Positions 8,446 to 25,625 of a DNA stretch of 64,000 nucleotides are shown here, in pieces. The position numbers and the translations under genes are program-made. Under the pieces are notes generated by a model. It was given only the letters and a program-made list of their open reading frames with translations, made no database searches and had not been told where the DNA came from. The DNA is from Lysobacterales bacterium (GTDB lineage: Bacteria > Pseudomonadota > Gammaproteobacteria > Xanthomonadales > SZUA-5). The number at the start of each line of letters is the position of its first letter. Positions within the stretch are counted from its first letter, which is position 1. The stretch covers positions 62,001-126,000 of the forward strand of contig JALHMG010000008.1 of assembly GCA_022844135.1 (NCBI GenBank), in the 5' to 3' direction.

Positions 8446-9784
8446 CTACAATTCGAACCCATTCCGGAACACGAACGTGGCGCTCAAGTCGTGTGCACCT
8501 ATATCCACCTGCGGCCCGCGAGCGAAACCGTCGAGATCGAACGGCGCCAGGCCCCCGGCTGGCGACACCAACCCCACTCGCAGCGCCGGCGAGTTGCTGC
8601 TCAAGCGCAGATTGCCGTTGGCCAAGTCCACAAACAGCGGATTGGCGCCGACGACATTGCCTGCGCTGGCACCGTTCGCTGTGCCCGTCAGGGATTGGTA
8701 CAAGTTGTTGTTGAGCCGAACCACGTTCGAGGTGCTGGCCAAACGTAAATCCGGTTGGATGTGGCCAAAAAACAAACTGTTGCTGATGAACACCTGCCCG
8801 ATGCTATCGGTGCTAACGTAGATGCCGGCTGCAGCATCGCCCGAGCCGGTATTGGAGTTGTTCGCGAAGGTGTTATTGGAAAGGAAAACCGGACCCTGCG
8901 ACGGCGCCCGCACCCGCAGCGCAGCTGCCGTGCCTTGCGCCGGATCGGTGTCGCTGATGCGATTGTTGTAGAAGCGCGAACTACGCAGCACGATGCGCCC
9001 ATTGCTGCCGCCCAGATTGTCGATTTGCACCGCACCGGCGGTAGCGCTGAAGGACGTCGACTGGTTGTTGTCGAAGTCGACATTCTCGATCAGGATCAAT
9101 CCGCTGAAATTACCCGCTCCGGTGACCCGCAAAGCCGACGCTCCGGTCTGGTTGGATCCGCCAACCAGACGAAATCCGGAGAATTCGTAGTTCACGTCGG
9201 CGCCATCCGGGCCAACGAACCCTGACAGATCGACGAGCCGTAGCGACGTGTTGGGCGCCGCGATCAGGCTAGCCCGCATATTTCATGAGGTCGCGATGAA
9301 ATGGCTTAGTTTCGTTGTTACAGCCGGGAAATCATCGAGTTGGTCGTACTGACAAAGTGTTCGCTGCCATTTCCTCGCTAACACGGCCCTCGCTCGTTCT
9401 TTGCGCCGGACTCTTCGTTGCTCGTCGTCCCAATGGAACAACCATTCCTCCTCCTCGCGCCTCGATTCCGGCGCAAAGCCCTTCGCGATCTTCCGCGTTC
9501 CCTCATGAAATATGCGGGCTAGTGCGCGCACCGCGCTGTCGAATTGTGCAGTTCGCATTCCAGCCTCCCGTCAGGCTGACGCCGCGGCCCTCGTCGTCGC
9601 TGATCGTGAAGCCATCCGCGGTCACGAATTCATCGGCGACGACGCGTACCTCGTCGGGCTGCTCGTTAAAGCGCGCTTGAAAGAGCGCCGTGTCGAGTTG
9701 CGCCAGGTTGCCGACGCAGAACACGGCCGAGTTTACTGAGGAGGCGCCGAAGGCTAATGCCAGGAACACAAATGATCGATACAT
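8446..9784 (-). pseudogene. Secreted beta-helix protein gene split by a 246-bp element
   Basis: The 5' part (9784 down to 9519) encodes a signal peptide (YRSFVFLALAFGASSVNSA) and an N-terminal region ending GGWNANCTIRQRGARTS. After the element at 9273-9518 the frame resumes at LIAAPNTSLRLVDLSGF and continues as a parallel-beta-helix protein (IENVDFDNNQSTSF, SSRFYNNRISD, NNTFANNSNTGSGD). It then shows a choice-of-anchor-Q-like stretch (PFDLDGFARGPQVDIGAHD) and the tail FVFRNGFEL. Removing the element plus one CTAG copy gives a continuous 362-residue protein. As it stands, the upstream part terminates just inside the element. Confidence 0.85.
9273..9518. mobile_element. MITE-like element, copy 1 (246 bp, inside the beta-helix gene)
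   Basis: The ends are perfect 18-bp inverted repeats CCCGCATATTTCATGAGG, flanked by CTAG on both sides (9269-9272 and 9519-9522), a 4-bp target duplication. Copy 2 at 24833-25078 has the same length and differs at only about six positions. No transposase is encoded, so it must be mobilised in trans. CTAG fits the YTAR target of IS5-type elements, but copy 2 used CTAT, so the family link is a guess. Confidence 0.88.
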
Positions 9785-11088: not shown

Positions 11089-12305
11089 GGACCCTGCTGA
11101 TCGTGCTGGCGATCGTGGCTGCGCTGTTCGCTTTGCTGCTTGCGGCTATCGTGTTCTTCATGGGCGGTGGCTTCGATCGCTGGTCCGCCGAACGCGACGT
11201 CAAGCAGCGCGGCTACCGCGTCAGCGAGCCGATCGACATCGATGGTCTATGGCGAATGCAGCTCGCGCCGGGCTGGCGACGCGATACGTACCTGGAAACT
11301 CTTCCCGGCGGCGCCCTCATCGCCGGACCGCTGGGAACCTTGAACCGGCGCGAGCTGATCGAGCGCAACTTCGCTCGTGCCTACCTGGCGCTGGGTCGCT
11401 ATAGCCACATCGGTGGTACGGTGACATCGGCGACGGCCGACGTGCGCGTGCTCACGCCGGGCGCGCCGGCCTTTGACATCAACCCAAGCGGCGACGGCGC
11501 GCGAATGACCTGGCGCGAACATCAGCGCGACGAAGCCGGCGTGGCCTATGTGCCGACGAATGCATCCGCCGCCGATCTCGATCTCGGGCCTTGGGTGGTG
11601 TACTTGCGCACGCAACCCGGCGTCCGCGTCGAGGCCCGCGCCGACGGGCAAACCTACAACCTGGCGCAGCTTGCCGTGCTGGCGCGCGAGATGGCGCTTA
11701 GCGTGGAGCCGAACGCGTCCGCAATGGCGGCAGCGCTGGCGGACTATGATCGGCGCCACGGCGCTACACAGCTTGCCATCGACGCCTCGCGCGCGCTGGT
11801 GCAGCAGCACTTCGGGCTCAGTCGGCTCGGCAGCAGTTGGGACGAGGCGGTGAGCGAGCCGGGCGGAAGCTTTGTGTGGTCCAATCCCGATTCGGTGCAA
11901 ATCCTCTACCGCGTCGGCGCGGTAGCCAATCCGAAGGCGGAGGAGGCGCCAGCGCTACTCGCCAGGCTCTCGATCGACCCCAGCCGAGTCACCGACGCCA
12001 TGCGCGATAGCGCCCGCACCGCAATCGGCGGCGGCCCCGATTTGGAAATCATTGGCGTGTGGCGCGATGCCAATGGCGAAATGAGCTTCAACGGCATCCA
12101 GCATACCGGCGCCGACAACTTCTACGACAAATCAGTCCCGCTCGCCATCGCCGTGCTCCCACGACTTTCCTCCAACGAGCTGCCGCTCTTCCGGCTGCAG
12201 TCGTTCTCCTGGACCCAGACCAACGAAATCCGCGCGTTCCTCGAGGCCAGCGGCGCGATTCGTGCGGCCGCTGATGAGGGCCGTCCCATTTGGGCGGCTC
12301 AGTGA
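11085..12305 (+). CDS. Membrane-anchored protein of unknown function
   Basis: A 406-residue protein starting at GTG (overlap GTGA with the previous stop). One N-terminal membrane segment (TLLIVLAIVAALFALLLAAI) precedes a long periplasmic part. I do not recognise the family. The C-terminal 86 residues (IIGVWRDANGEMSFNGIQHT to EGRPIWAAQ) exist a second time as a relic at 7972-8232. GVWRDANG...SFNGIQ resembles lipocalin-like 'GTW' starts, but this is only suggestive. Probably works with the DUF4893-like protein, given the coupled translation. Confidence 0.7.
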   Translation: MRTLLIVLAIVAALFALLLAAIVFFMGGGFDRWSAERDVKQRGYRVSEPIDIDGLWRMQLAPGWRRDTYLETLPGGALIAGPLGTLNRRELIERNFARAYLALGRYSHIGGTVTSATADVRVLTPGAPAFDINPSGDGARMTWREHQRDEAGVAYVPTNASAADLDLGPWVVYLRTQPGVRVEARADGQTYNLAQLAVLAREMALSVEPNASAMAAALADYDRRHGATQLAIDASRALVQQHFGLSRLGSSWDEAVSEPGGSFVWSNPDSVQILYRVGAVANPKAEEAPALLARLSIDPSRVTDAMRDSARTAIGGGPDLEIIGVWRDANGEMSFNGIQHTGADNFYDKSVPLAIAVLPRLSSNELPLFRLQSFSWTQTNEIRAFLEASGAIRAAADEGRPIWAAQ

Positions 12306-12344: not shown

Positions 12345-14603
12345 TTAGGGGCAACCCCCACCGCCGCTGCTTTCGAATCCACTGGCGAACACCACGCCGC
12401 CGCCGGGGTTCCAGACGGCCAGATTTGGGCTCGGCAAGCCGCCAGCGAAAGTGAATTTTCCGCCGACGATCAGGCGGCCATTGCTGCCGTGGAGCACGTT
12501 GACCTGGGACGTCTCGGGGTTACCGACGAAGCTATCGGACACGCCGTTGCTCGCACCGGCACCCAGGGATGCCAGGCTTGGTATCGCACGGACCAGGCGA
12601 TTGAAGTTCAAGGCGCCGACGTTGGCCTGGGTGCCGGCGCCGCCGGCATACATCGATACACCCAGTGCGCCGATGGCCAGTAGCGTGGCGTCGGTGCGGA
12701 AGAGCTGTGTTGCCGCCCATTGTTGCGTAGTCAGATCGAGCGTGCGCAGCGCGCGGCTGTTGCCGGGAATGATGGTGTCGGCGACGGTGCTGGCATAAAG
12801 CTGATTGCCGAGCAGCGCAAGGCCACTCATGGGTTCGACCGATGTACCGGGAACGGCGCTGAACGCGGTGCCGTCCCAGCGCGCGAAATTCAGCACCGGC
12901 ACGCCGCCGGCGCTGTCGAAATCGCCCGAGATGTAGAGCGAGCCGTTGTGGAAAACCATATCCCAGGGCGTCCCGTCGAGACCGCCCTTGCGAAAGCCGG
13001 CGGTCGCGCCACTGCCGAGCGGCTGCCAGGCGCTGCCGTCGAAGCGCGCAATGCCGTTGTACGTCGCACCGCCGTAAGTCCTGAAAATCGGTCCGCCAAG
13101 GGCAAATATGCCGAGCGGTGTGGCCAAGAGTTTCCGCACTTGGGGCCGAAAACTGTTCGGCCCGACGCCGACAAAAGTGCTGCCGGTCCAGCGCGCAACG
13201 CTGGCCATGCTTGATCCGTTGAAGCTGTCGAACTCGCCGCCGGCCCACAGCTCATCGCCAACAAAGGTCAATGCGCGCACGTTGCCGTCGAAACCTTCGC
13301 CAGCGCCGAACGCTTGCCACGCGGTTCCATTCCAACAGGCGATGCTGCGCGCAGGCGTGGTCGCGGTCTGACGGAAATCGCCGCCGGCAATGATTGCGTT
13401 GCCGCGCGTGGTGATGGCGTAGACATGTCCATCGATGCCGTTGCCAGTATTGCTTCCGAGCGAACTCCAACCGCTCGACAATGCGGCGATACCGCTGATG
13501 CGCTGCGCGCCGATGCGACGAAAACCGCCGCCGACGAAAAGCTGTCCGCCGCCGCTCGCGAACGCAAACGGCCGCGACTCTGGACGCGTGCTCGCCGGGT
13601 TTTGCCACACGCCCGCATTGAAGCGCGCAAATAATGGTGTGGCGATGCTCCCGGCAGTATCGAAATTGCCGCCCACATACAGGCCATCTCCAGAAGCGTG
13701 CAGCGCATCGACGCCGACGCGTACGCCCAGACTGTGGGAGATACCACCTGCCAACGTCGACCAGGTGCCGCCGACCACGTTGTAGCGCACGAGATGGTTC
13801 GCGGTTTGGCCGTTGAACGTGACGAAGTCGCCAGCGGCGAACACCTCGCCGCCGTGCGCCGTCAGTTTGTTGACCCAATTGATAAGACCGCCAGCCGGAA
13901 CAGCGTTCAAGTCCTGCCAGGCCGAGCCGCTGAAGCGCGCCACCGAGCTGAGCGTCGTGCCGCTGACGCTCATGGACTGACCAGCGACGTAAAGTTGCCC
14001 GCCCGATTGGGTCAAGTCCAAAACGGAGCCGGAGAATCCGCCGACCGACGCAATGCTCGCGCTAATCCGCGCCAGACCATTGGCGCTAACGCCGCCAACG
14101 GCGCTGAAGTGGCCGCCCACGTACACATCGCTCCCGATGACTTCGACGGCGTTGATGTAGCTGCCCGACACGAAGCCGGGAATCGACCACTGATTGCTCG
14201 TCAAGTCGTACCGCGCCAAGTGCGAGGCGGGCAAGCCGCCAGCGCTCAAAAACTCACCGCCCACCCACAGCGAGTCGCCCGACACCGCCAGCGCGCGCAC
14301 GGTGTTGCTGATGCCGGGGCCGAACGCGAACCACTGCTGCGCGCTGGGGCTGAAAAGCGCCAGACTGTTCGCTGGCGTATTGCCGCACTGGCTGAAACTG
14401 CCGCCGACCACAATCTCGCCGCCTGGCAGGCGCTCGATCGCAAAAACAGTGCCGTTACAGCCGTTGTCGAAACCGGAGAATCGTGTCCAGTCGCCCGATT
14501 CGCTCTGCGCGAACGCGCCAGTCGACAGGCTCGCGAACAGCCAAGGCGCAAGTGCGCCTCGCGTCGCCCGGGCCAGATGCGAAAGCATTGAAATGATTCC
14601 CAT
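12345..14603 (-). CDS. Secreted beta-propeller-like protein with GFE tail
   Basis: A 752-residue exported protein whose signal peptide ends near FASLSTGAFAQ. It carries roughly a dozen repeats of about 45-55 residues of the type VGG(E/D/N)F..AGG..A..LARYD...W, for example LWVGGEFLSAGGLPASHLAR, VYVGGHFSAVGGVSANGLAR and LWAGGEFDSFNGSSMASVAR. This is a delta-60/kelch-like propeller pattern. It ends NPGGGVVFASGFESSGGGGCP, a GFE-type tail with a Gly-rich extension and a penultimate Cys. An alternative start is ATG at 14587. It converges with the gene at 11085-12305, 39 bases away. Confidence 0.8.
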   Translation of the reverse strand: MGIISMLSHLARATRGALAPWLFASLSTGAFAQSESGDWTRFSGFDNGCNGTVFAIERLPGGEIVVGGSFSQCGNTPANSLALFSPSAQQWFAFGPGISNTVRALAVSGDSLWVGGEFLSAGGLPASHLARYDLTSNQWSIPGFVSGSYINAVEVIGSDVYVGGHFSAVGGVSANGLARISASIASVGGFSGSVLDLTQSGGQLYVAGQSMSVSGTTLSSVARFSGSAWQDLNAVPAGGLINWVNKLTAHGGEVFAAGDFVTFNGQTANHLVRYNVVGGTWSTLAGGISHSLGVRVGVDALHASGDGLYVGGNFDTAGSIATPLFARFNAGVWQNPASTRPESRPFAFASGGGQLFVGGGFRRIGAQRISGIAALSSGWSSLGSNTGNGIDGHVYAITTRGNAIIAGGDFRQTATTPARSIACWNGTAWQAFGAGEGFDGNVRALTFVGDELWAGGEFDSFNGSSMASVARWTGSTFVGVGPNSFRPQVRKLLATPLGIFALGGPIFRTYGGATYNGIARFDGSAWQPLGSGATAGFRKGGLDGTPWDMVFHNGSLYISGDFDSAGGVPVLNFARWDGTAFSAVPGTSVEPMSGLALLGNQLYASTVADTIIPGNSRALRTLDLTTQQWAATQLFRTDATLLAIGALGVSMYAGGAGTQANVGALNFNRLVRAIPSLASLGAGASNGVSDSFVGNPETSQVNVLHGSNGRLIVGGKFTFAGGLPSPNLAVWNPGGGVVFASGFESSGGGGCP

Positions 14604-14756
14604 GTTATGCGTTTGGTTGGACGTTGCAACAGCAGATGCGATTCCGTGGCGAATCCCGCCAGCTCGCCGCTATGAACGCATCGACTGGCGGGTTCGATTG
14701 CGCTTTTGCATTACTCGATTGCACCAGCACCCGTTGGCCATCACTTGGAGCAGCAA

Positions 14757-15263
14757 ATGAACCGCAGCACGCTATTCGCAGCAGCGTTGTTATCGAGCAC
14801 CCTTTGCATTGCGCAAACGGCTTCGCCAGACGCGGCACTCATGGTTCTGGGCCTGACGCAGCATCGCGGACAGACCATGATCGACAAGGAAATCGTGCCG
14901 GCGTTCGAACGCAAATTTGCCGAGACCTGTCCACCGGGCGGCACGCGGCTGACCGTGGATCTCGACAGCTTTCGCGGCGACGATGAGGCGATGTCGGCGT
15001 TTATTGCCAGCGAGGTGAGCGACCCCAGCAATCGTGCGTTGGGTTCGCTGCTCCACGTGCTCAGAAACGAATGCGACGACGACGCTGGCCGCGCGGCCGT
15101 GAATACGCAATTGAAAGAAGTACGCGTGCGACACGAGCGCGGTCTGCCCGCCCCGCAAGCGGCGTTAGCTGATGGCACGCTGGCCATCACGGTGGACATC
15201 CTGCAACGCAAACCGCCGACCGTGCAGCAAATTGAAGTTGAGCTGACGAAGGCTCTGAACTGA
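14757..15263 (+). CDS. Small secreted protein, unknown function
   Basis: A 168-residue product with a signal peptide (NRSTLFAAALLSSTLCIAQ), two cysteines in the mature part (ETCPPGGTRLTVDLDSFRGD and HVLRNECDDD) and a charged helical C-terminus (IEVELTKALN). TTGGAG lies 6 bases before the ATG. It lies 68 bases upstream of the sigma-factor gene on the same strand, so it may belong to that module. I do not recognise the family. Confidence 0.65.
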   Translation: MNRSTLFAAALLSSTLCIAQTASPDAALMVLGLTQHRGQTMIDKEIVPAFERKFAETCPPGGTRLTVDLDSFRGDDEAMSAFIASEVSDPSNRALGSLLHVLRNECDDDAGRAAVNTQLKEVRVRHERGLPAPQAALADGTLAITVDILQRKPPTVQQIEVELTKALN

Positions 15264-15331
15264 CGCGCTGCGGTGACCGCGATACCCGGCCTCTGGCATG
15301 CTGCGCGCATCAAGGCGCACGGAGGGCGTGG

Positions 15332-15880
15332 GTGGACGCAGACATCACGGCGCTGCTGGCGCGCGCGCGCGGCGGCGATGAAAACGCCTACAGTGCGGTG
15401 GTGGTGGAGCTTTACGAGCAGCTCAAGCGCATGGCGCGCCTGCAACGGCGGCGCGCAGGCGGCGCCACGCTCGAGACCACGGGCCTGGTGCACGAAGGTT
15501 ATCTGCGAATTCGCGAGTGGAGCCGCCAGGTGCCGGGCGACCGCGGCCACTTTCTGCGGCTGGCGGCGACCGTGATGCGCCAGGTCTTGTGCGAGCACGC
15601 GCGCCGGCGTCTGGCGCAAAAACGCGGCGGCGGCGCGGCGCCCGTCGATCTTAACGAGGACATGGTGGCTGAACTGGCGGAGGCTGAGCAGTTCGTGGCG
15701 CTCGACGATGCGCTCAAGGATTTGAAGCACTCGCATCCGGCGCTGGCGCAGGTGATCGAGTGTCGCTTCTTCCTGGGATTGAGCGAGCAGGAAACCGCCG
15801 AGGCCATGGACACCTCGCTGCGCTCGGTGCAGCGCTACTGGAGCCAGGCGCGCGCGCACCTGACCGGCGAGCTGTCGTGA
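15332..15880 (+). CDS. ECF-type sigma factor (TIGR02999-like), module 1
   Basis: A 182-residue sigma-70-family factor: region 2 (DITALLARARGGDENAYSAV then RRAGGATLETTGLVHEGYLR), the conserved HFLRLAATVMRQVLCEHARR, RLAQKRGGGAAPVDL, and region 4 (CRFFLGLSEQETAEAMDTSL then RSVQRYWSQARAHL). This ECF subgroup is typically encoded beside a Ser/Thr kinase rather than a classical anti-sigma factor. GTG start, with GGAGGG 5 bases upstream. It overlaps the kinase gene by 4 bases (GTGA), implying coupled translation. Confidence 0.9.
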   Translation: MDADITALLARARGGDENAYSAVVVELYEQLKRMARLQRRRAGGATLETTGLVHEGYLRIREWSRQVPGDRGHFLRLAATVMRQVLCEHARRRLAQKRGGGAAPVDLNEDMVAELAEAEQFVALDDALKDLKHSHPALAQVIECRFFLGLSEQETAEAMDTSLRSVQRYWSQARAHLTGELS

Positions 15881-18078
15881 TCCGCGCCGATTTTCTGGTT
15901 CCCGGCGGCGCGCTAGCAGGCGCGCTGGCGCGGCACATCGATCGACGCCGCAGCGTCGGTGAGCGCGTCGGTTCCTATCGCCTTATGGCGCTGATCGGCC
16001 AGGGCGGCATGGGCGAGGTGTGGCGCGCCGAGCGCGATGACGGCGCCTACCAGCAAACGGTCGCGATCAAGTTCGCGACGCTGGCGAATGCGCGCTCGGG
16101 CCGGGTGCTGCTGGAGCACGAGCGGCAGTTGCTCGCGGGCCTGGAACATCCGCACATCGCGCGCGTGGTCGATGGCGGCACCAGCAGCGACGGCGATGTT
16201 TGGTTTGCGATGGCCTGGATTGATGGCGCGCCGCTCGATCGCGCATTGACATCGCTGACGCTGGACGCGCGTCTGCGCCTGTTCGACCAACTGTGCGCCG
16301 CGGTGGCCTATGCGCACCGGCGGCTGGTGATCCACCGCGACATCAAGCCAAGCAGCGTGCTGGTGGATGCGCGCGGCGCGCATCTGCTCGATTTCGGCAT
16401 CGCCAGTTGGCTGGATCGCGATCGCGATGAGTCGGCGGGCTTTTCTACGCCGCAGTGGGCGAGTCCGGAACAGAGGGCTGGAAGTGCCGTCAGCACCGCC
16501 TCCGATGTGTATCAGCTCGGACGATTGCTGGCGATGCTGCTCGACCCTGCAAAGCCGTCCGCGTCCGATGCTACGCAACGGGTCCATAGCGAAGCATCGA
16601 GCCCGCCGAAGCTGCCGCCCGGGCCGCTGACATCGGTGGTGCGCAAAGCTACCGCCAGCGCGCCGCAGGAGCGTTACGCCACCGTCGATGCTCTGGCCGA
16701 GGACGTGCAGCGTTATCGCGATGGCCGCGAGGTGCAGGCGCACGGCGGCGGCCTCGTCTATGGCGCTGGCTTGTTCGTACGCCGCTGGCGCTATTCGCTG
16801 GCCGCTCTGGCGTTGGCGCTGCTGATTGCCATCGGCGGCACGGTGGCGGCCTTCGTTCGCGTACAGGCGGCGCGCGGCGATGCCGAGCGCGAAGCCGCGC
16901 GCGCCCAGCGTGTAGCCGATTTCCTCGAACGCATTCTGATCGAAGGCTCGCCAACCCGAGCGGGCGGCGAGCGGCCGACCGTCGATGCGCTGTTGGTGCA
17001 GGCCGAAGCGCGCATCGATAACGACTTTGGCGATCAGCCGGCGCTGCGCGCGCGCCTTCTTGGCCTGCTGGCGCGCGTGCACATCGAGCACGAAGCGCAT
17101 GGCCGCGCCGCGCCGTTGCTGCGCGAAGCAGTTGCCATCGACGGCGACGCTGCGCGCGAGCCCGAAGCGCTGCGGCGGCTGATGATGTATGGCGCCGCGC
17201 TGCATCAGATGGGCGAGAGCGCCGCCGGTTTGCGCGCGCTGCAGGCCGCGCAGGCGCGCGCGAACGATCTGGATTTGACGCTGCGCAATCAGATCGAGCG
17301 CAACCTGACGCAGGTGCAATACCAGATGGGCGATGTGCAGCGCGCCATCGAGGGCATGCGAACGGCGAGCGAGCGCGTAGAGCGCGAGCGACCGGCTAGT
17401 TCGCTGCTGGTGGCCAATTTGATCAACCTCGGTCAATTCGAAGCCGCTGCGGGCCACGACTCAGCGACCGAGACCTTGACGCGTGCTTATGAACTCAGCC
17501 AGCGCGTCAACGGCGCCGAACATCCGCACACGCTGCTGGCGGGCATGACCAACGTAACCAGCCTGGGCGCACGCGGCGATCATGCACGCGCCGTGGCGCT
17601 CGGCAAAGAGTTGGCGCGGCGCGTACGCCTCGTATTCGGCGATCCGAGCGCGCATTACGCGAACGCGCTGATGGCGCTTGGCTACGCGCAAGAGCGAGCC
17701 GGCCTGCTGGATGCGGCAACGACGACCTACGAGCGATCGCTCGCCGGCTGGCACGCGCTGCCCGAGGGCAGCGATCTCAACAGCGTGACCGTGCTGCAGC
17801 AATTGGGCGACATCGCCATGGCGAAGGGCGATACGCGGCGCGCCATCGAACACTATCGCGAGATGCTGGCGCGCAACGCAGCCGATCGCCACGCCGCCGA
17901 TCCCGATCTCGGCCAACGTCCGCTCAGGCTCGCCAAAGCGTTGATCGCTGCAGGCGGGTGTGGCGAGATAGCGGGTCTGCTGGCGCAGGCTCGCGATCGA
18001 TCCGCGCGAGCACCGGACGGGCACGCCGTACACAGCCTGTTGGCCGAGGTCGAGGGCGAATGTCCCGTTGCCGATTGA
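15877..18078 (+). CDS. Ser/Thr protein kinase with TM and TPR-like sensor, module 1
   Basis: A 733-residue protein. The kinase domain (about 33-290) has the glycine loop GQGGMGEV, an active-site lysine in VAIKFA, the catalytic loop HRDIKPSSVL, DFG in LLDFGIA and SPEQ in the activation segment, so it should be active. One membrane segment (YSLAALALALLIAIGGTVAA, about 306-326) precedes about 400 residues of helical TPR-like repeats outside the membrane. GTG start overlaps the sigma gene. By analogy with similar pairs, it probably senses a signal through the TPR part and modifies the sigma factor or associated proteins; the target is unproven. Confidence 0.9.
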   Translation: MIRADFLVPGGALAGALARHIDRRRSVGERVGSYRLMALIGQGGMGEVWRAERDDGAYQQTVAIKFATLANARSGRVLLEHERQLLAGLEHPHIARVVDGGTSSDGDVWFAMAWIDGAPLDRALTSLTLDARLRLFDQLCAAVAYAHRRLVIHRDIKPSSVLVDARGAHLLDFGIASWLDRDRDESAGFSTPQWASPEQRAGSAVSTASDVYQLGRLLAMLLDPAKPSASDATQRVHSEASSPPKLPPGPLTSVVRKATASAPQERYATVDALAEDVQRYRDGREVQAHGGGLVYGAGLFVRRWRYSLAALALALLIAIGGTVAAFVRVQAARGDAEREAARAQRVADFLERILIEGSPTRAGGERPTVDALLVQAEARIDNDFGDQPALRARLLGLLARVHIEHEAHGRAAPLLREAVAIDGDAAREPEALRRLMMYGAALHQMGESAAGLRALQAAQARANDLDLTLRNQIERNLTQVQYQMGDVQRAIEGMRTASERVERERPASSLLVANLINLGQFEAAAGHDSATETLTRAYELSQRVNGAEHPHTLLAGMTNVTSLGARGDHARAVALGKELARRVRLVFGDPSAHYANALMALGYAQERAGLLDAATTTYERSLAGWHALPEGSDLNSVTVLQQLGDIAMAKGDTRRAIEHYREMLARNAADRHAADPDLGQRPLRLAKALIAAGGCGEIAGLLAQARDRSARAPDGHAVHSLLAEVEGECPVAD

Positions 18079-18085
18079 CTGGCCC

Positions 18086-18109
18086 GGACATGTCATGAGG
18101 GAACGCCGA
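18086..18109. mobile_element. Solo end of the MITE family
   Basis: The sequence CCCGGACATGTCATGAGGG followed by AACGC matches the right-hand end of the MITE family (copy 3 begins CCCGGACATTTCATGAGGG then AACGC). The rest of the element and the opposite end are absent nearby. It is a decayed remnant starting 8 bases after the kinase stop codon. Confidence 0.6.
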
Positions 18110-18138
18110 AGAACGAGCGATTCAGGCGCTTGACGTGG

Positions 18139-18156
18139 GTCGCGCCATGGCGCGAC
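18139..18156. repeat. Palindromic repeat GTCGCGCCATGGCGCGAC
   Basis: A perfect 18-base palindrome. Related sequences are at 3486-3608 (three units) and 20591. Downstream bases ACGCTTTTGCTATTCCCG are also shared, in inverted orientation, with the copy near 20575-20600. It fits a dispersed extragenic palindromic repeat. Confidence 0.65.
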
Positions 18157-18242
18157 GCTTTTGCTATTCCCGCTCGGCGACTGAAGGATTCTTGCCGCGA
18201 CTATTGATCCGGCACGACATCCGCAATCAGCGCCGTCTACTC

Positions 18243-18306
18243 GGGCGCGATGAATGGCGCCCCTATCGGTCGCTAAGGTCCCGTAGGGGCGCGATTCGTC
18301 TCGCCC
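18243..18306. repeat. Imperfect inverted repeat (23-bp arms)
   Basis: Arms at 18243-18265 and 18284-18306 pair at 20 of 23 positions around an 18-base loop and could form a strong hairpin. No T-run follows, so an intrinsic terminator is unlikely. It is more like an extragenic repeat. Confidence 0.6.
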
Positions 18307-18608
18307 GGCTTTGGGTTGGATCAAACACTCCGCCGCCGGATGTGCCGATTCAATAACCGCGAAACTTTGCCGATCGCATCCTCGAATTGCGACGCAAAGA
18401 TAGTCGTCGGCTACGGATTGGAAAGCCCAAGCTGCGTCTGCAGCAGCGCTCGGGCCGGTACCAGATCGCGTTTAACCGTGTGCAGGTTCACGCCAGTGAC
18501 GTTTGAGGCAAATCGGGTCGCGGTCATCGTTTGAATTCTTCGGCGATTTTGCGGGCGCAAGTTCCAGAGAACGTTGTTGATGACGTCATCCTCAACCAGG
18601 CGTCGCTC

Positions 18609-20531
18609 ATGCGCACGTTGTTGTTCCTTGCCGTTCTCTCTTCGCCGCTGTCCGCTGCAACCTTCACCGTCACCCGGACCGACGATCCGCCGCCCGACGG
18701 CTGCCTGATGGCGGATTGTTCGCTTCGCGAAGCCATCGCGGCCGCAAACGCCACGTCCGAGATTGACACCATCGAACTGCCCGCGGGCACCTACACGCTG
18801 GGTCGCACCGGTGCCGGCGAGGACGCGAACGCGAGCGGCGATTTCGATGTGTCGGCGCCGCTGATCGTGCGCGGCGCCGGACGCGCCAGCACCATCATCA
18901 ATGGCGCCGATCTCGATCGATTGTTCGATGCCACGGCGGCGCTGACGCTGGAGCGCATGACGCTGCGCGATGGTCGTGCCAAGGACGAATTCGATGTGCC
19001 CAAGGAGGGCGGGGCGATCCGGATCGCAGCGCACACCTTAACCCTGAGCGACGTACGCATCACCAGCAACGAAGCGGGCAATGCGGGCGGCCTGTGGATC
19101 GACCTCGGCGGCAGCGCGTTCACCAACGTCGAAGTCGACGACAACACCGCGCTGAGCGTGGGCGGCGTTCAATTCATTCAGAGCGCCGCTTTCCAGGGCA
19201 CCTGGAATCAGGTGCGAGTGGTGGGCAATCGTTCGACCGATCCCAACGGCGGCGGTGCGGGTGGGGCAGAGCTGGGGTTTGCTGTGGGTACGATCAACGG
19301 TCTGGTGGTCGATAACAACGAAACGACGGGCAGCGTCGGTGGCGTGTCGCTGGGAGCCGCCCAGCAACTGACCTGGATCGGCGGGTCGATCAGCAATAAT
19401 GCTGCACGCGATTCGGCAGGCGGGTTTCAGATCGGCGTCGGGCGCACTGCAAGCATCGACGTACGCAACGTCGACATCGTCGGAAACCTCGCCAATCGCT
19501 TCAATCGCCCGCCGGTGTCCTTCGATCAGTTTCGGGGCGGCGGCGGCATCGTTGAGATCGGTTGCAACGACAGTTGCGGCATCGTTTCGTTCATCAACAC
19601 GCGCTGGATCGGCAATCGGGTCTTGCAGGGCGTCGGCGGCGGCTTGAGCGTGTTCGGCCCGGCGCCGTTCGTCGAAGACTCGCAGTTCCTGCGCAACGAG
19701 GCCGACCAGGGCGGCGGCGCGTGGGGCGAGTTCAGCGGCATCGAAGGCCAGGCACTGACGTTTTCGCGCACGCTGTTTGCTGCCAATCGCGCCTTCATTC
19801 GCGGCGGCGCGGTGGCCATCGGCGAGCAAGTCGACGGCAATTTCACGCCGGCGAGTTTCTCGCAAAACCGGATCACACAGAATTCTGCGCCCATTGGCGG
19901 CGGTTTTGCGGTGCGAGGTCCGCTCAATCTGAATCGGACCAGTGTGTACGCCAACAGCGCCGAGCAGCGCGGCGGGGCGATCCATGCGGAGGGCGCTGCG
20001 GTGGCATTGACCAACAGCACGGTCAGCATCAACGCCGCGCCGGCGGCAGACAATCTCGATCTCGTCGATAGCGATTTCACCGCCGAGCACAGCACGCTCG
20101 TTGCTGCCCCATCGCGCCTCGGCGTCGCAGGCAGCGTGCTGCGGGCGGCCGATTCCGGGGCCGCAAACATGGCCACGTTCGCACTGTCCGTCGTACAAGG
20201 CGCCTGCGATATTTCCGTAACCACGAGTGTCGTCGCTACGCTTGGCAATCGCGAGGCGCCGGGCAACACCTGCCGCTTCGCCGGCAGCAGCGCTGCGATC
20301 TCACTCGCGCAACTCGCGCTCGGTCCCAGGCTGAACAACGGCGGCCCGACGCGAACTCATCTGCCGGCCACCCATTCACTCGTGTTCCAGGCCGCCGCTC
20401 AGCCCAATTGTCCACTGGCGGACGATCAGCGCGGCATCGAGCGCATGGTTGTTCCTGATATTGCGTGCGATGCCGGTGCCGTCGAAATCACCCCGAGCGA
20501 CGTCATCTTCGCCGACGATTTCGAGTGGTGA
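18609..20531 (+). CDS. Secreted CSLREA/beta-helix protein with DDFE tail
   Basis: A 640-residue protein. The signal peptide (RTLLFLAVLSSPLSA) is followed directly by a CSLREA motif (TFTVTRTDDPPPDGC, then DCSLREAIAAANA). A long right-handed beta-helix follows, with repeats such as GGLWIDLGGSAFTNVEVDDN and GGFQIGVGRTASIDVRNVDI, and then an anchor-Q-like end (DDQRGIERMVVPDIACDAGA). It terminates VIFADDFEW, a GFE-family tail with D for G and one extra Trp. The ATG at 18609 is chosen for its signal peptide. It follows sigma/kinase module 1 on the same strand. Confidence 0.85.
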   Translation: MRTLLFLAVLSSPLSAATFTVTRTDDPPPDGCLMADCSLREAIAAANATSEIDTIELPAGTYTLGRTGAGEDANASGDFDVSAPLIVRGAGRASTIINGADLDRLFDATAALTLERMTLRDGRAKDEFDVPKEGGAIRIAAHTLTLSDVRITSNEAGNAGGLWIDLGGSAFTNVEVDDNTALSVGGVQFIQSAAFQGTWNQVRVVGNRSTDPNGGGAGGAELGFAVGTINGLVVDNNETTGSVGGVSLGAAQQLTWIGGSISNNAARDSAGGFQIGVGRTASIDVRNVDIVGNLANRFNRPPVSFDQFRGGGGIVEIGCNDSCGIVSFINTRWIGNRVLQGVGGGLSVFGPAPFVEDSQFLRNEADQGGGAWGEFSGIEGQALTFSRTLFAANRAFIRGGAVAIGEQVDGNFTPASFSQNRITQNSAPIGGGFAVRGPLNLNRTSVYANSAEQRGGAIHAEGAAVALTNSTVSINAAPAADNLDLVDSDFTAEHSTLVAAPSRLGVAGSVLRAADSGAANMATFALSVVQGACDISVTTSVVATLGNREAPGNTCRFAGSSAAISLAQLALGPRLNNGGPTRTHLPATHSLVFQAAAQPNCPLADDQRGIERMVVPDIACDAGAVEITPSDVIFADDFEW

Positions 20532-20574
20532 GCGTGGAGTTTGTTGGTGCGGCACGACGTGATCAGGTGCCCAT

Positions 20575-20610
20575 CGGGAATAGCAACAGCGTCGCGCCAT
20601 GGCGAAGCGC
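20575..20610. repeat. Inverted copy of the CCATGG palindromic repeat
   Basis: GTCGCGCCATGGCG at 20591, with preceding CGGGAATAGCAACAGC, is the reverse complement of the palindrome and its downstream bases at 18143-18175. It lies between convergent 3' ends, as at 3.5 kb. Confidence 0.55.
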
Positions 20611-20762
20611 TTGATTGCCTTGGTTGCGCCACCGGACAAAATGCCAATGCGCCGGATTACCACCTGCGCAACCGACGATTGCGATGCACTTCGCAAGCTG
20701 AAAATGAACATCGCCGGCATTGGGCCGGCGATGCAAGGCAAACCGTTTGGCGGGCGCCGGAG

Positions 20763-21227
20763 TTACATCTTCGACTTCAGGAATTGGGTGATTTCTTCGT
20801 CGATGTTGGGGCGATCCAGTTCCACCGCGTAGTCGAGCTTGCCACCGGATAGCTCCAGCTTGAAGCCGCTTTGCTTTCCGCCGTAGGCGCAGTGGATGCT
20901 GCTGATGTTGGCGCCCACGGCCGCTTTGCCGTCCGCCGTTTCGCACAAGCCCTTGACAATTTGTACCACCGAGTCGCAGCGGCCGTAGGCGGACGCGGCA
21001 TTGGTTTCGACTTCTGTTTTGCCGTTCCACCAACTGGTGCGGTCGAAGCTGAAGGCAATGTTTTTCCCGCAGGCAGTGGACATCGCGGCCACACCCTCAT
21101 CGATGTAGCTGTGGTTCTTAGCGAAGTACTCCTTCTGCGCCAGGGTTTCCGGCGCGGCGGGCGCTGGCGCCTGCGCCTGCGCGAAATTTGCAGCGAGGAG
21201 GGTAGCAACGGCAATAGCGATGCGCAT
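20763..21227 (-). CDS. Small secreted protein, unknown function
   Basis: About 154 residues with a signal peptide (RIAIAVATLLAANFAQA), a Pro/Ala-rich linker and four cysteines in the mature part (STACGK, GRCDS, GLCETADG, IHCAYGG) that could form two disulfides. The start at 21227 is set by GGAG 8 bases upstream. It lies divergently upstream of sigma/kinase module 2; module 1 likewise has a small secreted protein gene upstream, though co-directional and unrelated in sequence. Family not recognised. Confidence 0.65.
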   Translation of the reverse strand: MRIAIAVATLLAANFAQAQAPAPAAPETLAQKEYFAKNHSYIDEGVAAMSTACGKNIAFSFDRTSWWNGKTEVETNAASAYGRCDSVVQIVKGLCETADGKAAVGANISSIHCAYGGKQSGFKLELSGGKLDYAVELDRPNIDEEITQFLKSKM

Positions 21228-21461
21228 GATCAATTCTCCAAAGAGTGGGCGGCGAAACGCCGCAAGGCGTTCTCACTCGGAAACGCAATCTGCATGGCGC
21301 GCCCGCAATCGGGCTGGAATTGCGGGTTGGGGCTTTCCGTGCCGTTATCTCCTGGCATGCCGCCCGATGTCCGACCCATGTTGTCGCAACAAACGTTTCG
21401 CACACACGCTCGACATCGCCGACTCGTTAAACTGTCCGCGAGGTCGGATCGGAGTGCCGCA

Positions 21462-22019
21462 GTGAGTGTCGAGCCCACGCAACTGCTCAATGAGATACGC
21501 GCCGGCGACAAGCGCGCCTTCGATCAGTTGGCAGCACAGCTCTATCAGGAGTTGCGGCGGCTGTCTGGCAAGATGCGGATCGGACAGCGACAGGACGCGA
21601 CGCTCGACACCACTGCGCTGGTTCATGAAGCCTACTTGCGCATGAGCGGCGCGGGCAGTATCGCGATCAACGACCGCAAGCACCTGTTCGCGCTCGCGGG
21701 GCGCGTCATGCGCCAGGTGTTGATCGACCATGCGCGCGAGAGGCTCGCCGACAAGCGCGGCGGCGGTGCGGTGCCGACGACGTTGTCGGATAAAGACCTG
21801 GCGGTACTTGATGAGGCCGAACAAATGGTCGCCCTGGATCAAGCATTGCAATCGCTGGCAGCACACGATCCCCGCCAGGCGCAGGTTGTGGAGTGTCGCT
21901 TTTTTGCCGGATTGAGCGAAGAAGAAACTGCCGAAGCATTGGGCGTGTCGGTACGCACTGTGCAACTGGATTGGGCGAAGGCACGTCGGCATCTGTTGGG
22001 CGGCGACGATGCTGCGTAA
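21462..22019 (+). CDS. ECF-type sigma factor (TIGR02999-like), module 2
   Basis: A 185-residue paralogue of the sigma factor at 15332: TQLLNEIRAGDKRAFDQLAA, GQRQDATLDTTALVHEAYLR, HLFALAGRVMRQVLIDHARE, RLADKRGGGAVP, and region 4 CRFFAGLSEEETAEALGVSV then RTVQLDWAKARRHL. Start GTG at 21462 has GGAG 7 bases upstream. The frame is open far upstream, but that part overlaps the opposite-strand secreted gene and is not sigma-like. The kinase gene starts 11 bases before this stop. Confidence 0.9.
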   Translation: MSVEPTQLLNEIRAGDKRAFDQLAAQLYQELRRLSGKMRIGQRQDATLDTTALVHEAYLRMSGAGSIAINDRKHLFALAGRVMRQVLIDHARERLADKRGGGAVPTTLSDKDLAVLDEAEQMVALDQALQSLAAHDPRQAQVVECRFFAGLSEEETAEALGVSVRTVQLDWAKARRHLLGGDDAA

Positions 22020-24189
22020 AGACTGGTTCAAGCCGGGTGGCGCGCTCGGTGGGGCGTTATTCGAAGATTGGCAGCGCAGCCAGCCGGAGGGATTCTCCGA
22101 AGTGCCGGCATGCGGCCAGCGCATCGGCGCGTTCGTCGTGAAGCGGCCGATCGGCGAGGGCGGGATGGGCGCCGTGTATCTGGCCGAACGCGTCGGCGAG
22201 TTCGAGCAGCGGGTAGCGCTCAAGCTGATCAAGCGTCGATCGCGCGGCGATGACGTTGAGCGCTTGTTCAAGCGCGAGCGTCAGCTGCTGGCGCGGCTCA
22301 ACCACGCCGGCATCGCGCGCTTGATCGATGGCGGGCAAACGGACGACGGGCAACACTGGTTCGCCATGGAATGGATCGATGGCGCGACGCTCGACGCGTG
22401 GCTGAAGCATTCGGCACCCGATCTGGCAGCGCGTATCGATGTGTTCGCGCGCATCGCGCTCAACGTTGCAGCTGCACACGAGCAACTGGTGATCCATGGC
22501 GATATCAAACCGTCCAACATCCTGATCGATGCCAAGGGCCAGCCCTTTTTGCTGGACTTCGGCATCGCACGCGCGCTGGACGCGCTCGATGCCGATGAGC
22601 CGACGGCGATGACGCCGACCATCGCAAGTCCGGAACAGGCCGCCGGTTCGGCACTGACGGTGCGCTCCGACGTATTTCAATTGGGGCGGCTGCTGGCGCG
22701 CATGATCGATGCCTTGCCGGCGCCGCTGGCGGCGATTGCCGCCAAGGCTCAGTCCGAGGATCCGGCACAGCGTTATCCGGATGTGCGCGCCCTGATCGAC
22801 GATGTGCGGGCGTGGCAAGCGCATCGCCCGATTGCTGCGTTGCCGCAGTCCTGGTGGACGAGGTCCCGATTGTTCGTGCGCCGCCATGGCTTTGCAACAG
22901 GCGCCATTACGGTGGCGGCGATGTTGCTTTTGGGTGCGACGGCGCTGTACGTTTTTCACATCGACGCCGCACGCAAGGAAGCGCAGGGCAGTCTTGCCAC
23001 TGCGCGAGCGACGATGGATTTTCTGACCGGACTCCTGGGACGCGCCGATCCGCGGCGTGGCGCAGGCCGCGAGGCGACCGTCGAATCGGTGCTGATCGCA
23101 GCGAGCGAGGAGGTGAAGGCGTCGGCCATGCCGAGCGATCAGCGCGCGCGTTTGTCCGCAGTGCTGGGCGAAATCTTCACGCAACGCGAGGACAATCATC
23201 GCGCCATTCCACTCTTGCGCCAAGCGCTCGAAAATCCATCGCTACAGCCGTTGGAGCGCGTGCGCCTGCTGCGCATGCTGGCGCGTTCGCTGGTCACGCC
23301 TAAAGCGCTCGACGAGGCCAATGCGCTGCTGGCGCAGGCGTACGTGCTGCTCGACAACAGCCGCGCGGCGCGCGAGGAACGCACGCATCTCGACCGCATC
23401 CGCGCGCTGATGATGTATTTCGGCAGCGATCTGCCGGCCGCGATCGCCCTGCAGCAGCAGGCATTGGGCGATGCCGAAACGCTGTTCGGCGCCGACGCCG
23501 AAGAGCTGGTCACGCACCTGACGAACTTGGGTCAATTCCTGGGCGTCGGTGGCGATGTGCCGGCCGGTATTGCGGTGCTCGAACGCGGCTACGCGCTGTC
23601 GCTCAAGCACTATGGCGCAGACAACACGCGGACCATCAACTTAGGCGGCGCGTTGGCGCAGTCGCTTGGGTTTCAAAAAGAATTCGCGCGCGCCGCAAAG
23701 CTGCTCGACGACACCCTTGCCGCCACCTTGCGCGTGTTCGGCGAGGGCAGCCCTAATCACGCGCTGATGCTAATGGCCAAAGCCGATTTGTCGGAGCGCC
23801 GCGGCGATTGTGCGGCGGCGGTGCCGCAGTATCGCGCGGCGCTGGATGTGTGGAATGCGATGCCGCGCGCCAACGACTTGAATTCGGTCAGCACCCTGCA
23901 GGGCATGGGCGATTGCCTGATGAAGCTGCAGGATTATCCGAACGCACTCGCGGCCTACGAGGAAATGCTGCGCCGCGATCGCAGCGGCCAGCACGCCAGC
24001 GATATCAACATCGGCAATCGCGAGCTGAAAGTGGCCCAGGCGCTGGCGGCATTGGGACAATGCGCGTTGGCGCGCAAGTACGCCGATGAGGCCGACACCC
24101 TGGCGCAGAAGATGGCGCCGAATCGCAAATGGCTGCACGAGCAAATTGCCGCCGTGCGCTCGTGCGGTTCGACCGCACCGCCTGCGTAG
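22009..24189 (+). CDS. Ser/Thr protein kinase with TM and TPR-like sensor, module 2
   Basis: A 726-residue paralogue of the kinase at 15877. The glycine loop is GEGGMGAV (about residue 51), the lysine is in VALKLI, and DFG is in LLDFGIA (about 183). The catalytic loop reads VIHGDIKPSN: the usual HRD is HGD, keeping the catalytic Asp. Loss of this Arg marks RD-to-non-RD kinases, which usually do not need activation-loop phosphorylation. One membrane helix (about 293-316) precedes about 400 TPR-like residues. It overlaps the sigma gene by 11 bases. Confidence 0.9.
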   Translation: MLRKDWFKPGGALGGALFEDWQRSQPEGFSEVPACGQRIGAFVVKRPIGEGGMGAVYLAERVGEFEQRVALKLIKRRSRGDDVERLFKRERQLLARLNHAGIARLIDGGQTDDGQHWFAMEWIDGATLDAWLKHSAPDLAARIDVFARIALNVAAAHEQLVIHGDIKPSNILIDAKGQPFLLDFGIARALDALDADEPTAMTPTIASPEQAAGSALTVRSDVFQLGRLLARMIDALPAPLAAIAAKAQSEDPAQRYPDVRALIDDVRAWQAHRPIAALPQSWWTRSRLFVRRHGFATGAITVAAMLLLGATALYVFHIDAARKEAQGSLATARATMDFLTGLLGRADPRRGAGREATVESVLIAASEEVKASAMPSDQRARLSAVLGEIFTQREDNHRAIPLLRQALENPSLQPLERVRLLRMLARSLVTPKALDEANALLAQAYVLLDNSRAAREERTHLDRIRALMMYFGSDLPAAIALQQQALGDAETLFGADAEELVTHLTNLGQFLGVGGDVPAGIAVLERGYALSLKHYGADNTRTINLGGALAQSLGFQKEFARAAKLLDDTLAATLRVFGEGSPNHALMLMAKADLSERRGDCAAAVPQYRAALDVWNAMPRANDLNSVSTLQGMGDCLMKLQDYPNALAAYEEMLRRDRSGQHASDINIGNRELKVAQALAALGQCALARKYADEADTLAQKMAPNRKWLHEQIAAVRSCGSTAPPA

Positions 24190-24284
24190 AGCGGTTCACA
24201 CGAAGCCACGAGGACACGAAGTATCTGGCTGAGTAACACCGTGCCTGCGTACGAACGGCTCCGATGGCAACTCCTCAGTTCATT

Positions 24285-24370
24285 TCCGCGCCTCCGCGTG
24301 AACCAGCGCTCTTGCCTTTGCAGCTGAGGTCCGCGTTCGGTCGCCCGCGGGTTTCACGCGGAGGCGCGGA
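24285..24370. repeat. Long inverted repeat between kinase and secreted gene
   Basis: Arms at 24285-24304 and 24350-24370 are complementary over about 20 bases with one bulge (TCCGCGCCTCCGCGTGAA... paired with ...TTTCACGCGGAGGCGCGGA). The loop is about 45 bases. The stable stem downstream of the module 2 kinase could act in termination or mRNA stability, or be an extragenic repeat. Confidence 0.65.
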
Positions 24371-24484
24371 GAGTCGGTTTGCGATTGGATTGCGGTAAAA
24401 CAACCAACGCTGCCTCGCCAAGGTGGCGGGTTTGCGAGCCTTTTTGCATCAGATGGCGTATGTCCTGTCCCTTGGAGATGCGCC

Positions 24485-25625
24485 ATGCGCTTGCTGCTGT
24501 TTGTGTTGTGCCTGTGGTCGTGCGCTGCCGATGCGCAAGCGCCGCGCGTGGTGATCGGCGGTGCGGGTGTGGTGCTCGGTGGTTCCAGCGCCGAGAGCTT
24601 GTCGCATGTGATGTTCTACGCCAACAACGGCGGCCAGGGCGGCGGACCGTCGGCGCAAGTGGTCAGTCGCGTGCGCTTGAGCATCGGTTATGCGCCGGCG
24701 CAAGTCATCGAAGTCGTCGCCGGTTCCTCGTGCACGTTCGATAACGAAACGCGGCGTTTGACAATCGATTCCAGCGCCGCGCCGGGAAGCGAGCTGGCCA
24801 CGCAAACGCTGTGCGTCGTTCGCTATGGCTATCCCGCATATTTCATGAGGTCGCGATGAAATGGCTTAGTTTCGTTGTTACAGTCCGGAAATCATCGAGT
24901 TGGTCGTACTGACAAAGTATTCGCTGCCATTTCCTCGCTAACACGGCCCTCGCTCGTTCTTTGCGCCGGACTCTTCGTTGCTCGTCGTCGCAATGGAACA
25001 ACCATTCCTTCTCCTCCCGCCTCGATTCCGGCGCAAAGCCCTTCGCGATCTTCCGCGTTCCCTCATGAAATATGCGGGCTATAGCGGCGTGGTCACGTTT
25101 ACCGAGGACACCACCCAGCGCCAGTTCGTCAATCTGCTTGGCACCACCACCCCCGGCACGGTCACGCTCGGATCGCTGGCCGTCCAACAAAGCCCGACGA
25201 GTACACCACCGAACTTAACCTACACACCGAACCACAACGCGCAGCCCACGCCGGATTTGAATGCCGAGATCGTTTTTCCTGTTGCGCCGCTGAGCACGAT
25301 GACGACGATCCCGATTTCGATCACCGCATTCGGTGGGACCGGCGGCCTGGGCATGGCGAGCGTGTCGACCTGTCTGGCGTATCGCTTGACCAGCGGCAAC
25401 GCCATCATCGCGTTCATCCCCTCCGTGCCGCAGTACAACTTCGGCGCCGGCTCGAACGCCACCGTGAGCTTCAACGTGCAGTGCTCTCGCGACAGCGTCG
25501 AGCATCGTGCGCTGGTGGTGTGCCTGGAGGGGCAGAATCCGGGAAGTTTGCAACAACGCGCCTGGGATGTGCGCTGCCCGGCGGCAGGCGTTGTCGATGC
25601 GATCTTTGCGTCCAGCTTCGAATGA
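24485..25625 (+). pseudogene. Secreted protein gene with FE tail, split by a 246-bp element
   Basis: The first 116 codons encode a signal peptide (RLLLFVLCLWSCAADAQA) and a beta-rich N-terminal half ending CVVRYGY. The element at 24833-25078 interrupts, and the frame resumes at 25083 with SGVVTFTEDTTQRQFVNLLG and ends VVDAIFASSFE. Excising element plus one CTAT copy (250 bases) joins the halves in frame into a 296-residue protein. The current 5' part stops a few codons into the element. GGAG lies 7 bases before the ATG. The family is unknown; the tail matches the other secreted proteins here. Confidence 0.85.
24833..25078. mobile_element. MITE-like element, copy 2 (246 bp)
   Basis: It has the same length, orientation and 18-bp inverted ends (CCCGCATATTTCATGAGG) as copy 1, with about six substitutions. 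It is flanked by CTAT at 24829-24832 and 25079-25082. The near identity of copies 1 and 2 implies recent movement. No transposase is encoded. Confidence 0.9.

Follow-up and report, generated by a model that had tools for sequence, protein, structure and literature searches.

Sigma Factor–Kinase Pairs of the ECF43 Type as Candidate Switches for Neighboring GFE-Tailed Surface Protein Genes in a Lysobacterales Bacterium

Introduction

We analyzed a 64,000-nucleotide stretch, hereafter the window, from the 5.34 Mb genome of a Lysobacterales bacterium (assembly GCA_022844135.1; G000:C8:62001-126000 in our numbering). It contains two modules, A and B, in each of which a gene for an extracytoplasmic function (ECF) sigma factor adjoins a gene for a Ser/Thr kinase and lies near a gene for a secreted protein with a C-terminal Gly-Phe-Glu (GFE) tail. 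We consider it somewhat probable that such pairs are phospho-activated ECF43-type switches and that, in a lineage-specific subset including A and B, their main target is the neighboring gene for a tail-bearing surface protein. In the mechanism that we propose, a membrane kinase with a periplasmic tetratricopeptide repeat (TPR) region would sense some signal and phosphorylate a conserved Thr in region 2.2 of its sigma factor, a step that we infer for these sigmas, and the phosphorylated sigma would transcribe its targets. For the subset including A and B, the main target would be the adjoining gene for a secreted, adhesin-like, β-rich protein ending in the tail [DE]x[LVI]F[AR][ND]GFE. The steps documented here are the domain architecture, the conserved phospho-site, the enrichment of tail genes beside the pairs, one conserved sigma–kinase–tail trio, and a promoter-like element belonging to that trio.

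Results

Sigma A (15332-15880, + strand) and sigma B (21462-22019, +) match the TIGR02999 profile at 175.6 bits (E = 9e-52) and 211.1 bits (E = 1e-62), respectively, against a cut-off of 126.15 bits. Each gene overlaps by a few bases the gene for its kinase: kinase A (15877-18078, +; 733 residues from this start) or kinase B (22009-24189, +; 726 residues). Both kinases contain a Pkinase domain (E = 8e-28 and 3e-29) and one strongly hydrophobic transmembrane (TM) segment, at about residues 309-327 in kinase A and 298-316 in kinase B, with TPR matches on its C-terminal side. The first-pass annotation had described two ECF sigma/Ser-Thr kinase pairs with a TM segment and a TPR region, and these profile matches bear it out. 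The cytoplasmic Hanks-type domain of kinase A, which precedes the C-terminal TPR region, has the catalytic loop HRDIKPSSV; that of kinase B has HGDIKPSNI, with HGD in place of HRD. Among 63 pair kinases, the loop reads HGD in 2 and HCD in 6, and the motif went unmatched in 5. The closest solved structure to kinase B by sequence is that of PknS from Xanthomonas citri (9eed_A; PknS 1-364, 9EED). A structural model of kinase B (pLDDT 88.5) predicts the kinase domain, followed by a long helix (294-345) and, at 358-717, a C-terminal region that is helical throughout; the match list of a fold search with this model (VIA-align) was filled by kinase domains.

The region 2.2 motif is ETTG in sigma A and DTTA in sigma B, each with a TT dyad and an acidic first residue. 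The candidate phospho-acceptors are T50 of sigma A, in LETTGLVHE, and T51 of sigma B (numbered from the start given above), in LDTTALVHE. A Thr occupies the position of EcfK T51 in 63 of 63 sigmas of recognized pairs, and K72, E90, D165, and D183-F184-G185 are invariant in the 52 kinases compared. Both sigmas thus show the traits of the ECF43 type: a sequence of the TIGR02999/Sigma70_ECF type, an adjacent gene for a Hanks-type kinase, and the region 2.2 Thr. The libraries that we used hold no ECF43 model, and the label rests on the TIGR02999 match, kinase adjacency, and the Thr motif. Kinases A and B likewise show the traits of PknS/PknT-like receptor kinases, with active-site residues, a single TM segment, and predicted extracytoplasmic TPRs. 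In the EcfK/PknS and EcfP/PknT systems, according to the portions of the reports available to us, the kinase phosphorylates a region 2.2 Thr that replaces an acidic DAED contact, which renders the sigma active (PMC13147305, PMC8999054, PMC8103513). Because of this precedent, the universal Thr, and the retained catalytic residues, A and B are likely to be phospho-activated switches whose main targets would be the adjoining tail genes. For A and B themselves, this view draws on analogy, as neither shows orthologues whose upstream regions could be compared.

We then counted tail genes beside such pairs. Genes were called by a purpose-written script in 26 sigma, 17 solo-kinase, and 40 arbitrary regions of this genome and in 60 regions from eight relatives, the latter centered on their highest-scoring sigmas and not on all of them (L152 and L157 gave no sigma gene). 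A pair required a same-strand kinase gene within 2 genes and 900 bp of the sigma gene, which left 24 sigma genes out of the counts and gave 20 pairs here and 43 elsewhere. Tail genes were defined as genes for secreted proteins with C-terminal [FLVIMYW]xx[GDSNA]FE no more than 8 residues from the end. With the window set aside, they occupy 7 of the 36 slots immediately next to the 18 remaining pairs of this genome (same-locus random mean 2.8, p = 0.0097). In the eight other genomes the figure is 12 of 86 (mean 5.0, p = 0.0005), one of the 12, with an 8-residue extension after FE, being less certain. Counting the strict tail pattern alone gives 4/36 here (p = 0.034) and 7/86 elsewhere (p = 0.0007). 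Of the 594 genes called in the arbitrary regions, 12 qualify as tail genes (9 by the strict pattern), which puts immediate slots roughly 7- to 10-fold above random genes.

The first-pass annotation had proposed such a count across genomes and named a lack of enrichment as the contrary outcome; it is the enrichment that was observed. Its wider form does not hold for secreted genes in general: signal-bearing genes without the tail are not enriched (11/36 against 10.7 expected here; 31/86 against 26.7 elsewhere). Only 2 of 20 tail neighbors are convergent with their pair, the other 18 being divergent or co-directional. We scanned 10 of these neighbors and found large secreted β-rich proteins: β-helices with CSLREA or choice-of-anchor Q domains, β-propellers, Calx-beta, FN3, and DUF11.

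These counts bear on the simplest alternative, that A and B are ordinary ECF43 pairs, two of the many in this genome, that happen to fall in a cluster of tail genes. The genome has 33 Sigma70_ECF places and 65 kinase-domain matches, and at least five tail genes lie within 26 kb of the window's start, all of which would make such a coincidence easier. Enrichment outside the window in two separate sets and the conserved trio described next speak against it, and we regard chance as very improbable.

Beyond the window, sigma–kinase pairs on contig C58 of this genome (L020/L187) and in a second genome (G021) are followed by tail proteins that are 50% identical to each other. A search of 250 genomes of the order found this trio tail protein in 9 (E up to 1e-40). 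Orthologous sigma (67-100% identity) and kinase (54-98%) genes adjoin it in 8 of the 9, spanning four families (f1, f3, f4, and f12). The tail gene lies 3' of the kinase on the same strand in seven genomes and on the divergent side of the sigma in one (G031); in the remaining genome (G004, locus L185), no sigma or kinase gene was found within the 12 kb read around it. Other neighbors of the trio, used as queries, proved common only to two genomes of one genus. Of 8 trio tail proteins aligned, 7 retain the GFE tail and the eighth ends in GAD; this protein (L189, G354), with its C-terminal MFCDGAD, is a natural variant of the tail. The trio tail protein has no Pfam match. Its model is a predicted β-solenoid, with autotransporter passengers as the best fold matches (E = 3e-5), though at low TM-scores of 0.2-0.3.

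A promoter-like element, GATGNGRCR-N14-YRCGCCYT, precedes the trio tail gene in all nine loci, 37-45 nt from the start codon. It comprises two hexamer-like blocks 17 nt apart, a spacing that we presume would suit an ECF-type promoter. In 4 of the 9 loci (L184, L185, L187, and L188) the element lies outside kinase coding sequence: 158 bp past the kinase stop in L184, 16 bp past it in L187 (this genome), with the kinase on the other strand in L188, and with no kinase found near it in L185. In L185, a short open frame that resembles the last kinase codons ends inside the element and is perhaps a kinase remnant. When a matrix was built from four loci of the coding kind, each of the four sites outside kinase coding sequence scored above all of its 2000 shuffles, and 12 of 15 invariant columns of an eight-sequence alignment fall within the element. 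Scanning 18 genomes with a matrix built from eight of the nine tail-gene sites, with at most two loci returned per genome, gave scores of 33-42 for the nine sites and no more than 17.8 for the 21 other loci returned. The element fits a tail gene that is the private target of the trio sigma, which would itself recognize it. When up to two mismatches were allowed, genome-wide counts were near those of the reversed-pattern control (164 against 117 in G000; 98 against 118 in G021).

Neither module A nor module B is a trio orthologue, a candidate identity that we ruled out: sigmas A and B are not sister to the trio sigma, the tail proteins are not homologous, and the best element match scores 6.6 upstream of tail gene A and 0.1 upstream of tail gene B against 33-42 at trio sites.

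The first-pass annotation had suggested that the pair controls surface-protein production. The enrichment and the trio, with its promoter-like element over four families, speak for this claim, but several observations weigh against it and against the tail gene as main target. Most pairs have no recognized tail gene in an immediate slot (12 of 20 here, 32 of 43 elsewhere). The difference between pairs (8/40 tail slots) and solo kinases (3/42) is not significant (p = 0.11). A gene-independent distance test with the strict pattern gave a weak result, 8 of 20 pairs having a match no farther than 6 kb away (p = 0.16); it covered contigs C1-C41, with 100 of the 130 places listed, and measures to the far end of long genes. 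The candidate target of module B is interrupted by an inserted element. Five of the nine trio loci have the promoter-like element within the last kinase codons, and coding constraint may therefore explain its conservation there; nor was the element found before the trio sigma. No bipartite motif shared between tail genes A and B, or between sigmas A and B, was found; pairwise tests on modules A/B and L010/L119/L129 gave p = 0.30 to 1.0, against p = 0.03 for the trio as positive control. Enumeration over 63 sigma-upstream rows, 28 tail-adjacent rows (some counted twice), and 51 other tail genes yielded no convincing motif, the top matches lying at scattered positions and being judged not significant after correction. 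The shared promoter motif that the first-pass annotation expected before tail genes thus failed to appear, whether for A and B or over all tail-adjacent genes. Direct control of the adjoining tail genes by their sigmas is a step that we infer from sequence.

Co-location without regulation could instead account for this pattern: tail genes and young pairs would gather in shared, rapidly changing regions of the genome, while the pairs control unrelated, distant genes. Tail-adjacent pairs of this genome are indeed younger and lineage-specific, their nearest sigma relatives being 44-68% identical (9 pairs, with module B labeled tail-adjacent by hand) against 48-98% for the 11 others (p = 0.003). 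Across 26 genomes, which hold 3 to 44 TIGR02999 matches each, sigma and tail counts rise together (Spearman 0.72; 0.59 for densities). The weak distance test and the tail neighbors of some solo kinases point the same way. Against co-location, the excess lies at the first rank and, in the other genomes, drops at once from 12/86 to 6/228 at ranks 2-4 (p = 0.0004). The excess also survives the same-locus control and is not shared by generic secreted genes, and the trio stays intact through rearrangement and across families while its other neighbors change. We regard co-location as the less likely account, though one with appreciable weight, and continue to favor regulation of the adjoining tail gene in the lineage-specific subset; some ECF43 switches are apparently wired to a neighboring tail-bearing surface protein.

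The tail protein could instead be input and not output, that is, an accessory or ligand of the periplasmic TPR region of the kinase, with adjacency arising from interaction and the sigma regulon lying elsewhere. Interacting proteins are often encoded adjacently, and the C-terminal region of kinase B is confidently predicted to be all-helical. PknS needs its extracytoplasmic TPR-bearing region for in vivo function, as stated in the accessible part of its description (PMC13147305). However, what the trio keeps is the promoter-like element of the tail gene and not the protein alone, and the bodies of the tail neighbors are varied and mostly not homologous to each other. We judge this alternative to be quite unlikely.

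The first-pass annotation had also raised the idea that the sensor perhaps reads the secreted product. A bolder form of our preferred reading joins output and input. TPR domains read C-terminal peptides in other systems. These bacteria could possess a repertoire of phospho-sigma switches, each with a private promoter to one adjoining tail protein and gained or lost as a unit, in which the periplasmic TPR region of the kinase reads the free C-terminal GFE tail, so that the switch would keep watch over how the protein that it controls is exported or anchored. We offer this as a speculation and give it little credence.

The tail itself appears as 46 sequences with the consensus [DE]x[LVI]F[AR][ND]GFE in this genome, 33 of which end exactly at FE. 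FxxGFE occurs 130 times against 22 for the reversed pattern, and Fx[ND]GFE followed by a stop 51 times against none for the control. In 142 other genomes of a class sample, the latter pattern is at chance level (16 occurrences, spread over 15 genomes, compared with 14 for the control), and the sample includes a genome of the same order that lacks it; in 61 relatives, tail counts range from chance level to 195. Because of these chance-level counts in the class and varying counts among relatives, we take the tail to be restricted to part of one order. It has no recognizable TM segment. NCBIfam scans of tail proteins returned no model for the tail itself, and a search of the literature on sorting signals in this order found no account of it, which is weak evidence of absence. 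The tail is a candidate sorting or anchoring signal, lineage-restricted and, as it seems, undescribed.

Tail protein A (18609-20531, +; 640 residues) has a signal peptide, a CSLREA N-terminal domain, a choice-of-anchor Q domain at 570-627, and the C-terminus SDVIFADDFEW. A choice-of-anchor Q domain stands directly before the tail in this protein and in a protein at locus L146. The C-terminal part of tail gene B encodes FASSFE. The first-pass annotation had placed a GFE-type tail downstream of both pairs, and both proteins do carry it, as FADDFEW and FASSFE, variants of the commonest form FxNGFE; for B, however, the gene lies in two open reading frames (ORFs).

That gene is split by a 246-bp element resembling a miniature inverted-repeat transposable element (24833-25078, no strand assigned), with terminal inverted repeats CCCGCATATTTCATGAG and CTAT on both flanks. 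The N-terminal part (24485-24859, +) encodes a signal peptide, and its frame enters the element; the C-terminal part (25065-25625, +) ends in DAIFASSFE. When the flanks were joined in a script, the frame was open to 296 residues. Tail gene B was accordingly dropped as an intact secreted protein. A second copy (9273-9520), with CTAG flanks, splits another tail gene likewise (9503-9769 and 8446-9279), and flanks of the family are CTAN-type 4-bp repeats. There are at least 40 copies in this genome, 91-99% identical, counted from 42 match rows of which 4 are halves of 2 split copies, with 40 of 176 candidates scored. Copies or partial copies also start 12-38 bp 3' of tail-gene ends (L007:17411-17658, L032:14698-14943, L038:6643-6888, and L116:12422-12536), in this genome and in one of the same genus (G001). 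A preference of the element for tail-gene ends is possible.

The sigma–kinase units of A and B are close kin. Sigmas A and B are 51% identical and reciprocal best matches among 87 sigmas compared. Kinase A finds kinase B as its best match over 26 genomes (39%, E = 9e-99; next 3e-76); in the reverse search, kinase A was not among the matches listed, with 42 of 91 candidates of this genome scored. The best match to kinase A in a same-genus genome is 37% identical, and we therefore see no orthologue there. A search with kinase B of a wider collection of genome contigs returned one Planctomycetota locus only. Trees group A with B with SH-aLRT values of 86 (sigma) and 90 (kinase), both below the starred level of 95. 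Because of the mutual best sigmas, the kinase match, and these trees, the unit was probably duplicated in tandem long ago within this lineage. A second and much younger tandem sigma–kinase duplicate lies elsewhere in this genome (L005:8828-11443 with 11440-12015, and 13421-15985 with 16024-16599) and has no adjoining tail gene. At three further loci (L018, L019, and L022; G000:C4, C5, and C64), the sigma gene departs from the usual sigma–kinase order: the kinase gene closest to it runs divergently or comes in reversed order.

The small secreted proteins of A and B show no similarity to each other, and neither do the tail proteins. The modules had been called paralogous in the first-pass annotation; this applies to the sigma–kinase units, found to be mutual closest relatives, but not to the flanking secreted proteins, and recent duplication of whole modules was dropped as an explanation. 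A shared plan had also been proposed. The sigma–kinase order is indeed common to both, but the small secreted gene of B is on the minus strand and tail gene B is split. Eight other genomes carry relatives of tail protein A, at 10 places in all (E up to 1e-20), with alignments of partial coverage. A distant homologue at L146, in another family, is 27% identical over 659 residues and also adjoins a sigma–kinase pair.

Small secreted protein A (14757-15263, +; 168 residues), 5' of sigma A, was recognized as an ORF with a signal-like N-terminus and has no Pfam or NCBIfam match. Small secreted protein B (20763-21233, -), divergent from sigma B, likewise matched no known family in these scans. The second gene 5' of sigma A encodes a neighboring β-propeller tail protein (12345-14603, -; Rax2/DUF5122-like) ending in VVFASGFESSGGGGCP. 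Further along the window, 31996-34428 encodes a kinase (810 residues as called) that has no sigma gene next to it. An Rfam scan of the window gave no match at the gathering threshold.

Discussion

Pairs of this type are numerous in this order, and regulons are described for only two ECF43 pairs in the portions of the literature available to us. If the lineage-specific subset does consist of private switches, their targets would be predictable from gene order, and the question of what the kinases sense would therefore become testable. In the conserved trio, a single sigma, kinase, target, and candidate promoter are available together. The same reading would link a regulatory system with a C-terminal tail that is lineage-restricted and apparently undescribed.

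The nearest known system is EcfK/PknS of X. citri, which has adjacent sigma and kinase genes, the region 2.2 Thr, and a kinase domain with a TM segment and periplasmic TPRs (PMC13147305, as far as its accessible text goes). According to the same text, EcfK controls a type VI secretion system (PMC13147305), whereas here the candidate target is a neighboring tail-bearing surface protein; many paralogous pairs also coexist in this genome, a further difference. EcfP of Vibrio parahaemolyticus similarly lacks the acidic DAED motif, and its neighboring kinase PknT phosphorylates a Thr of an STTA motif (PMC8999054, PMC8103513). It differs in serving a polymyxin response and resistance regulon, and the available portions of those reports show no link to a tail-bearing surface protein (PMC8999054, PMC8103513).

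Tail protein A resembles the choice-of-anchor/CTERM-type sorted surface proteins (NF041518, TIGR04214) in having a CSLREA domain and, immediately ahead of the tail, a choice-of-anchor Q domain. Unlike in those proteins, the GFE tail has no NCBIfam model in the scans made and no recognizable TM segment. The modeled trio tail protein has the β-helical autotransporter passengers Ag43 and EspP as fold matches, at TM-scores of only 0.2-0.3, but has no β-barrel and ends in the GFE tail. In Clostridium thermocellum, several paralogous SigI/RsgI pairs of a sigma factor and a membrane sensor are similarly thought to control surface or secreted proteins; these act by anti-sigma release rather than sigma phosphorylation and have carbohydrate-binding sensors. 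Set beside these systems, the type of switch appears to be a known one, while its wiring to neighboring tail-bearing surface proteins and the conserved trio would be new as far as the literature that we searched shows.

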